A stretch of 64,000 bases of DNA from Bdellovibrio bacteriovorus (GTDB lineage: Bacteria > Bdellovibrionota > Bdellovibrionia > Bdellovibrionales > Bdellovibrionaceae): positions 806,001 to 870,000 of the forward strand of contig NZ_CP020946.1 of assembly GCF_002208115.1 (NCBI RefSeq), in the 5' to 3' direction. This document shows, piece after piece, positions 37,900-39,391 of this stretch; position 1 is the stretch's first letter; every line of letters starts with the position of its first letter. The notes beneath the pieces are model-generated. The model was not told where the DNA came from. It ran no database searches and saw nothing but the letters and a program-made list of their open reading frames with translations. A program made the position numbers and the translations under genes.

Positions 37900-37940
37900 A
37901 AAAAACCCGGAAGGCGTAAACCCTCCGGGTATAAAGTTAC
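37900..37940 (-). terminator. Terminator of the flagellin gene
   Basis: ACCCGGA / TCCGGGT with a 12-base loop (37905-37930), on the minus strand followed by TTTTTTATTTT. Confidence 0.85.
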
Positions 37941-37991: not shown

Positions 37992-38825
37992 TTAACCGAT
38001 CAGCTTAAGAGCCAATTGGTTGGACTGGTTGGCTTGAGCCAAAGTGGATGTACCAGCTTGCAACAAGATGTTGTTACGAGTCATCTCGGAAGATGCCTGA
38101 GCAACGTCTGTGTCACGGATACGGCTGTTAGCTGCAGACAAGTTCTCTTGAGCAACACCCAAGTTGTCCACTGTAGAAGTCAATCTGTTCTGAAGGGCAC
38201 CCAGGTTGGCGCGAGTTCCAGAGATTGAAGTCTGTGCATTATCCAGCATACCCAAAGCTTCCTGAGCGCCTTCTTTAGTGGAGAAATCCACACCAGACAG
38301 ACCCAGAGCATCCAAAGTAGCCACGTTTTCAGAAGCGTTGAAGGAGATACGATCTTCTTCAGAGTTGTTGAACAAACCTACTTGGAAATCGAACTTCGGA
38401 GAAGAACCATCCAATAGTTTTGTAGTACCCCAAGTTGTTACAGAAGCAATACGCTGCATTTCTGATTTCAACTGTTGAACCTCTTTATTCAACATGCCAC
38501 GCTCTGTTTCACCAACTGTATCAGAAGCAGCCTGGATGCCCAACTCACGAAGACGAACCACGATGTTACCGATCTCGTTCAGACCACCCTCTGCAGTTTG
38601 AACCATGGAGATACCATCGTTCGCATTGCGCTGAGCTTGAGCAGCAGATCTGATCTGAGCTTTCAAGCCTTCAGAGATCGCCAAACCTGCAGCGTCGTCA
38701 GCAGCTTTATTGATGCGGCTGCCGGAAGCAAGTTTCGCCATAGAGTCGTTGATCTGTCTTTGAGAACCGACCAAGTTACGTTGAGCATTCAGTGCACTGA
38801 TATTTGTTGTTACTCTCATTCCCAT
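37992..38825 (-). CDS. fliC: Flagellin
   Basis: 277-residue flagellin. The N-terminal D0/D1 block (MGMRVTTNISALNAQRNLVG, SRINKAADDAAGLAISEGLKAQ) and the C-terminal D1/D0 block (NRLTSTVDNLGVAQENLSAA, SRIRDTDVAQASSEMTRNNI, LAQANQSNQLALKLIG) are fully conserved; the central variable region is very short (about residues 140-190). Bdellovibrio carries several flagellins of exactly this size. It is preceded by a leader of some 300 bases with several hairpins (see 38888-39112), no other fli gene is adjacent, and a terminator follows. The filament is needed for motility and prey encounter. Confidence 0.96.
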   Translation of the reverse strand: MGMRVTTNISALNAQRNLVGSQRQINDSMAKLASGSRINKAADDAAGLAISEGLKAQIRSAAQAQRNANDGISMVQTAEGGLNEIGNIVVRLRELGIQAASDTVGETERGMLNKEVQQLKSEMQRIASVTTWGTTKLLDGSSPKFDFQVGLFNNSEEDRISFNASENVATLDALGLSGVDFSTKEGAQEALGMLDNAQTSISGTRANLGALQNRLTSTVDNLGVAQENLSAANSRIRDTDVAQASSEMTRNNILLQAGTSTLAQANQSNQLALKLIG

Positions 38826-39059
38826 TTTAAATTCCTCCGTTAATATTTATTTTTCATATTCATTACCTTCCTTGATTTGTTTTGTTGGCATCAGCGAAAC
38901 CTACTTTCGCTTTGCCGGCACTGACATCCGAGTCGGTGCATTTGTATGGCCTTTGTTTTTTGCTCTTTTCAGAGCTTGGGCTTAGTCCGCTTCCGAGGCT
39001 TGCAGCCTCTGCAGCTCCTGGGCTCTGCCCGGTGAACAATCTATTGTTCTATTTTACTT

Positions 39060-39104
39060 TCATCCTTGAAGGCCCTCCTTTCGGTTCAGCAAGAGAGTGA
39101 CCAT
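39060..39104 (-). other. Possible 14-codon leader peptide in the flagellin leader
   Basis: ATG at 39102-39104 reads MVTLLLNRKEGLQG and stops at 39060. A purine-rich AAGGAG lies nine bases before it. The perfect stem CAAGAGAG/CTCTCTTG (39090-39112) has ATGGTCA as its loop, so the start codon would be displayed in the loop. Not known to be translated. Confidence 0.3.
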
Positions 39105-39143
39105 CTCTCTTGACTCCTTCTGAGTGAATCGTTGATGTGCATT

Positions 39144-39170
39144 AGATCGGGATTTGGTACGAGCTCTTGA
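39144..39170 (-). promoter_or_regulatory. Candidate flagellar (sigma-28-like) promoter of fliC
   Basis: On the minus strand TCAAGAGC, an 11-base spacer and CCCGATCT compare with the sigma-28 consensus TAAAGTTT-N11-GCCGATAA. Spacing is exact and CCGAT matches, but the -35 match is partial. Confidence 0.35.
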
Positions 39171-39391
39171 CAGGACGTCGGGCGGGTTTTGTTTGTTTTT
39201 CACAATACTGGCCGTAAGGCAGATCGGGGTTTCAGGACGTAGGATTGTCCTGAATCATTTGTACACAGTACTTTCAGAGGGAAAAATCGAATTTGGCAGG
39301 ACTTTGGATAAGTCAATTTTCTGAATGGGGATAAAGGGCTTAAGCGACGCAAAGGCCGCAAACCCGCTGCTGGAGTGCAAAGGAACAGAAT

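Follow-up and report, generated by a model that had tools for sequence, protein, structure and literature searches.

The leader of hag, the flagellin gene of Bacillus subtilis, has a two-site layout for CsrA. In this organism, flagellin synthesis has been described as part of a Hag–FliW–CsrA feedback (PMC6529632), and the flaA leader of Campylobacter jejuni is reported to be a dual-function mRNA that titrates CsrA, in an account that also gives CANGGANG apical hexaloops as targets which CsrA/RsmE binds with high affinity (PMC4894983). On the iraD leader of Escherichia coli, CsrA is described as repressing through a short upstream open reading frame (uORF) (PMC5574718). FlbT together with the flagellin 5′ UTR has been assigned a post-transcriptional control in Caulobacter and Brucella (PMC4347634), and the flg-Rhizobiales RNA motif is described and listed as RF01736 (PMC2864571). 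The single filament of Bdellovibrio is reported to be made of six flagellins arranged in blocks, with FliC5 as one of the major proteins of its proximal part (PMC2791853).

The window, the 64,000-nucleotide stretch of DNA that we analyzed, is part of a 3.77-Mb Bdellovibrio genome (labelled G000), and the features that we place in the window below all lie on its minus strand. The gene at 37992-38825 encodes a protein of 277 aa and is the orthologue of Bd3052; we named it fliC5 from its size, order and mirrored coordinates relative to the six-flagellin set as reported (PMC2791853). The region upstream of this gene is most likely its ~310-nt 5′ untranslated leader, transcribed from a FliA-type promoter. 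This predicted sigma28 (FliA)-type promoter, GTCCTGTCAAG-N14-CCCGATCT at 39144-39176, has a motif that is conserved in relatives: GTCCTGTCAA and CCCGAT accompany all 24 leaders of the genus, and GTCCTGTCAA is found with 34/36 leaders of the family. An attack-phase promoter consensus, TTAAG-N16-CCGATA, has been ascribed to FliA (PMC3627812). From the position of the promoter, we infer a transcript start at ~39137, and because this conserved FliA-type promoter lies directly upstream, the leader is very probably part of the fliC5 transcript. With a promoter motif conserved ~310 nt upstream, a transcript beginning just before fliC, the case that the original prediction had named against itself, is unlikely. 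Directly 3′ of fliC5 lies a terminator-like intrinsic hairpin with a T-run (37905-37930), and therefore fliC5 is probably a single-gene transcript. Farther upstream, at 39221-39254 and ~50-80 nt from the fliC5 promoter, a perfect inverted repeat (TTCAGGAC..GTCCTGAA) is followed by a second CCCGATCT; this arrangement is retained across much of the genus and may serve as an operator or as a second promoter.

The leader is present in 24/24 Bdellovibrio genomes, as a DNA search showed. Among the 140 genomes of the order, which represent 65 genera, a covariance model of its 5′ module matched 35, spread over 6 genera; the 11 genomes outside Bdellovibrio belong to five sister genera of the family, and all 11 of their leaders precede a flagellin-like gene start. 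The model of the 3′ module matched 29/66 family genomes. Our comparison set consists of 36 leaders from 35 genomes, which are related and not independent, and the model R2 was built from 14 of the 24 genus leaders, picked for alignment in one register. An Rfam scan of the leader gave no match at the gathering score, and a known riboswitch or other Rfam family was rejected on this ground; with E up to 5, four matches appeared, all far below the gathering score (two lncRNA families, sX5 and Flavivirus_DB), none of them biologically sensible. No published report of the fliC5 leader was found in the literature searched.

The original prediction of a long, structured leader holds. Folding of the leader on the minus strand gave -90.8 kcal/mol (z -4.0), a value reached by 0/100 shuffles, and the median fold z of the 36 leaders is -3.6, with 34 of them below -2 (20 shuffles each). 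On an alignment fitted to the model, a procedure that in itself favours structure, 13/25 pairs of the 5′ module (36 leaders aligned, 32 distinct) have changed on both sides, compared with 4.0 in shuffled alignments, and 12/16 pairs of the 3′ module, compared with 6.2. None of 500 shuffles reaches either value. The 3′ count comprises the 31 of 36 leaders matched by the 3′ model, the remaining five being left out; it involves 73 changed cells, against 19.3 in shuffles, with 98.2% paired. Within the genus alone, a double change is seen in one pair of the 5′ module, and 26/500 shuffles are as good, a comparison that is little informative because the 5′ module is so conserved there. The compensatory changes in the helices therefore mark the leader as a real structured RNA, and the comparative sequence evidence indicates that it is a conserved flagellin RNA, unlisted as far as Rfam and the literature tell.

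The five inverted repeats that had been predicted before fliC are all present, at 39090-39112, 39034-39049, 38989-39015, 38893-38911 and 38918-38939. The leader itself extends beyond the span first proposed at both ends, reaching H1 (39112-39130) and the promoter on the 5′ side and, on the 3′ side, running through a uORF as far as 38825, where fliC starts. H1 (GATTC..GAGTC, with the alternative ACTC-AGAAG-GAGT) is nearly invariant in the genus and takes a different register in other genera, where two leaders (L128 and L136) show a GGAUC hairpin with an AGGA loop. H2 (39090-39112) is the outermost of the five repeats and, as predicted, has perfect CAAGAGAG/CTCTCTTG arms with an ATG (39104-39102) in its loop, CAAGAGAG-ATGGTCA-CTCTCTTG. 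Its stem covaries, with 4/6 pairs changed on both sides, while the loop core RGUCA is kept in 32 of the 35 leaders having H2 (GGUCG in two, UACCCA in one). The remaining leader, L138 (G023:C1:1158758-1159260), is a second fliC5-like leader in one genome; its 5′ module is degenerate, without H2 and without the start of the mini-ORF described below. H3 (GAACAA-TAGA-TTGTTC, 39034-39049) is a perfect palindrome whose arms are identical in 24/24 leaders of the genus. A variable middle domain with at least one hairpin follows at 38962-39032; the stretch from H3 to H6 measures 39-101 nt in the genus, and the 25 middle segments that we folded (those of the 24 genus leaders and L138, out of 36) have a median z of -2.7.

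H6 (GCAC.GAC-TCGGAT-GTC.GTGC, 38918-38939) has a covarying stem and a six-base loop with GGA, and GGA is present in the H6 loop of 36/36 leaders. The loop reads UCGGAU in 23/24 leaders of the genus and UUGGAU in the other (L034); outside the genus, it is UCGGAU, UCGGAG, UCGGAA, AAUGGAU, AUGGAAU or AAGGAAU. For five leaders (L019, L020, L027, L029 and L030), H6 was taken from the alignment, the hairpin script having picked another GGA hairpin. H7 (38887-38916) has the inner stem GCGAAA-GTAGG-TTTCGC enclosed by GGC/GCC, with 5/6 inner and 3/3 outer pairs changed on both sides; its loop GUAGG is found in 23/24 leaders of the genus and is not kept in other genera.

Three tiny reading frames lie within the leader. 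As the original prediction had stated, a 14-codon frame starts at the ATG in the H2 loop and ends at 39060 (39060-39104), with AAGGAG 9 nt upstream of the ATG. This ATG occurs in 8/24 genus leaders and 0/12 others, and because it is not conserved, the start codon in the H2 loop and its 14-codon frame are probably incidental. The proposed leader peptide is thus not borne out, with its ATG in just 8/36 leaders, and two other tiny frames are conserved instead. One of these is a mini-ORF, ATG AAA GTA AAA TAG at 39049-39063, which is a two-codon ATG-NNN-stop in most relatives. Its ATG follows the conserved block GAAAGGAGGGCCTTCAAGG in 28/36 leaders and is absent in 8; the frame has two codons in 24/36 leaders (stops TAA in 18, TAG in 4, TGA in 2) and four codons in 4/36. 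The use of any of three stop codons at this place suggests, over few independent events, that a stop is selected for; conserved frames of only two codons are rare. In the window, the stop of the 14-codon frame (39060-39104) overlaps the mini-ORF ATG (ATGA).

The other conserved frame is the uORF, MKNKY*, at 38840-38857, with five codons, or seven if counted from another in-frame ATG, at 38863. A uORF stands just before fliC in 36/36 leaders, with five codons, counted from the inner ATG, in 29 of them, six in one and nine in six; a further upstream in-frame ATG is found in nine leaders. The peptide varies (MKNKY, MKNKF, MKTKK, MKFKY, MIKTN, MELKT and others), while the ribosome-binding site and the stop are kept. 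From the uORF stop to the fliC start, the distance is 14-25 nt in 34 leaders and 3 nt in two. The fliC ribosome-binding site, AACGGAGGA at 38833-38841, has a mean unpaired probability of 0.25-0.79 across leaders.

Candidate CsrA sites lie at or next to ribosome-binding sites of the leader. The SD1 block (CCGAAAGGAGGGCCTTCAAGGATGA, 39060-39084) consists of a Shine-Dalgarno-like AAAGGAGG followed by the first CANGGANG (site 1, 39061-39068), and a second one (site 2, CAAGGAAG, 38867-38874) overlaps the ribosome-binding site of the uORF. Both sites show CANGGANG in 36/36 leaders, with variation confined to the N positions: at site 1, the first N is A in 34 leaders, G in one and C in one, and at site 2, it is A in 27, G in four, C in four and T in one. 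The site of fliC itself is AACGGAGG, with ANGGA within the ribosome-binding site. As a background, CANGGANG occurs at 1 of the 33 window ORFs having a Shine-Dalgarno-like site, and CAN precedes 31/304 GGARG sites in the window. The counts of GGA and ANGGA, compared with dinucleotide shuffles, show no clear enrichment in most of the 36 leaders, and the argument for CsrA therefore rests on place and pattern, not on number. Counting against CsrA, H6 of most species reads CUCGGAUG and not CANGGANG. A stretch AAAGGCC at 38948-38954 and the GGCCTT in SD1 could base-pair. This pairing is not firm, having a fair probability in somewhat more than half of the 36 leaders and no clear covariation, and we do not rely on it, because some of the scored matches were other AGGC stretches (L128, L130).

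The proteins required for such a control are encoded throughout the family, with CsrA in 65/66 and FliW in 63/66 genomes. Our genome encodes both, in the gene order flgL-csrA-fliW, and the best solved-structure match for either protein is the FliW–CsrA complex 5dmb. One Bdellovibrio genome has a second, weaker FliW match (G021:C2:79365-79736). FliW (Bd0543) has been reported among the proteins raised during growth inside prey in a proteome study (PMC12546842).

We made the comparison with the other flagellin leaders that had been proposed along with the original prediction. The gene fliC3 encodes the flagellin that comes first in the filament. In 24/24 species (L065-L088), its leader has a hairpin of up to nine pairs, ~15-60 nt before the gene, with CANGGAU at its loop; the loop reads AAGGAU, or AUGGAU in one species, and the stem covaries modestly. 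The ribosome-binding site of fliC3 is CAAGGAGG, and the hairpin GGA lies 24-25 nt before its GGA in 24/24 species. We therefore predict from the sequence that the fliC3 leader is a hag-like CsrA-type two-site leader. As a point against CsrA, the fliC1 and fliC2 leaders of our genome lack CANGGANG at the ribosome-binding site. The fliC2 leader (L003, L103, L106) contains AAGTAGGTATA, like the H7 loop of fliC5. A search with the fliC6 leader returned mostly coding sequence and fliC5, whereupon 18 places were selected manually; in five genomes (L041-L043, L100, L104), the fliC6 leader combines a five-codon uORF and CANGGANG with the UCGGAU hairpin or a similar one, while in most other species the apparent promoter is only ~30 nt upstream of the gene. 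The fliC4 leader of our genome also has a five-codon uORF.

Taken together, we consider it probable, with appreciable room for doubt, that FliW–CsrA flagellin feedback acts through the uORF in the fliC5 leader. The leader would present CsrA with CANGGANG at the upstream ribosome-binding site, the GGA of H6, CANGGANG at the uORF and ANGGA at fliC. Accumulated flagellin would hold FliW and leave CsrA free to bind the leader and block the uORF and fliC, switching synthesis off; CsrA on the uORF site may bridge to H6 or to site 1. Once flagellin is exported, FliW would be released and sequester CsrA, translation would resume, and ribosomes finishing the uORF would re-enter at fliC. CsrA binding, repression and uORF coupling are all steps that we infer from the sequence. 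The coupling between the uORF and fliC is the least certain of them, as the gap in 34/36 leaders exceeds that of classical coupled genes. The original interpretation is partly supported: the leader peptide fails, but control at the RNA level, CsrA in particular, has comparative evidence behind it, namely the covariation of the helices, the GGA-type sites in which only N varies, the presence of csrA and fliW in the family and the parallel in fliC3. Neither the RGUCA loop of H2 nor the GUAGG loop of H7 is accounted for by a CsrA reading, and the same holds for the invariant H3 hairpin and for the length of the leader. In a wider scheme, which we regard as unlikely, the attack-phase fliC5 RNA would have a dual function, with the uORF controlling its own flagellin and the leader serving as the Bdellovibrio CsrA sponge that orders the use of the six flagellins, the two-codon mini-ORF would switch ribosome loading near the 5′ end, and a second factor would read the RGUCA and GUAGG loops.

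Several other explanations have to be considered. The leader could be an mRNA stabiliser: its 5′ hairpins, together with a strong ribosome-binding site and the mini-ORF, would bring ribosomes onto the RNA close to its 5′ end and protect a long-lived flagellin mRNA in attack-phase cells, which do not grow. The 5′ end of the leader resembles the Bacillus STAB-SD stabiliser, an element that holds off RNase J, and GAAAGGAGG, close to that end, adjoins the two-codon mini-ORF and is nearly invariant in the genus. However, a search of our genome gave no RNase J above the cut-off, which rejects a STAB-SD element working with that enzyme; moreover, the mini-ORF start is missing in 8/36 leaders in which CANGGANG persists, and H6 and site 2 would be left unexplained. 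We regard a stabiliser as unlikely. It is a more doubtful proposal that RGUCA, GUAGG and the H3 palindrome are read by an RNA-binding protein other than CsrA, or by a sensor of a small molecule, in a FlbT-like or riboswitch-like control. The covarying H2 stem around a loop that stays RGUCA in 32/35 leaders would suit such a factor, as would GUAGG in 23/24 leaders of the genus and the similar AAGUAGGU stretch before fliC2. Nevertheless, GUAGG is lost outside the genus, Rfam offers nothing at the gathering score and nothing sensible at E up to 5, and the leader is without the terminator that a transcriptional switch would use.

Two further explanations fit the data poorly. If the repeats acted only in the DNA, as operators, with the transcript starting nearer to fliC, the perfect H3 palindrome and the identity of its arms in 24/24 genus leaders would be accounted for, but the stems of H2, H6 and H7 change in a compensatory way around fixed loops, as RNA hairpins do, and ribosome-binding sites and stops are conserved inside the leader; we consider this very unlikely. 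Attenuation by a leader peptide from the 14-codon frame is extremely improbable: the frame and its AAGGAG do exist in our genome, but the ATG is found in 8/36 leaders only. A scan of the leader's transcribed strand gave no intrinsic terminator, and transcription attenuation was rejected on this ground.

The preferred reading, FliW–CsrA feedback through the uORF, is the most economical one and combines traits of several known systems, pairing feedback of the Bacillus and Campylobacter type with repression by way of a uORF like that of iraD. The CsrA-type leader of fliC5, the simpler leader of fliC3 and the motif-free sites of fliC1 and fliC2 would provide a testable basis for the order of the flagellins and, if this reading is true, the CsrA–FliW kind of control gains a much larger flagellin leader. 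Like hag, fliC5 encodes a flagellin, stands in a genome that encodes CsrA and FliW and has a CsrA-type site over a ribosome-binding site, and fliC3 shares with hag the upstream hairpin site together with the copy at the ribosome-binding site. Unlike hag, the fliC5 leader has ~310 nt, two tiny frames, covarying hairpins and a second CANGGANG on the uORF, its sites being predicted from the sequence. The likeness to flaA as described lies in ANGGA in covarying hairpin loops, a sigma28 promoter and FliW as the antagonist; flaA itself is described as having 45 nt and two stem-loops, with no uORF mentioned in that account, and its two-site layout is matched by fliC3 (PMC4894983). The flagellin leader as a site of post-transcriptional control also recalls the FlbT and flg-Rhizobiales systems as reported, although the fliC5 leader, in contrast to RF01736, has no Rfam match. 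Finally, fliC5 agrees with the published account of iraD in having, immediately upstream of the gene, a short uORF with a CsrA-type site that overlaps its ribosome-binding site, in the case of fliC5 in 36/36 leaders. The gene is a different one, and we do not claim homology; the uORF stop of iraD is reported to overlap the start codon (PMC5574718), whereas in 34/36 fliC5 leaders the two are separated by 14-25 nt.
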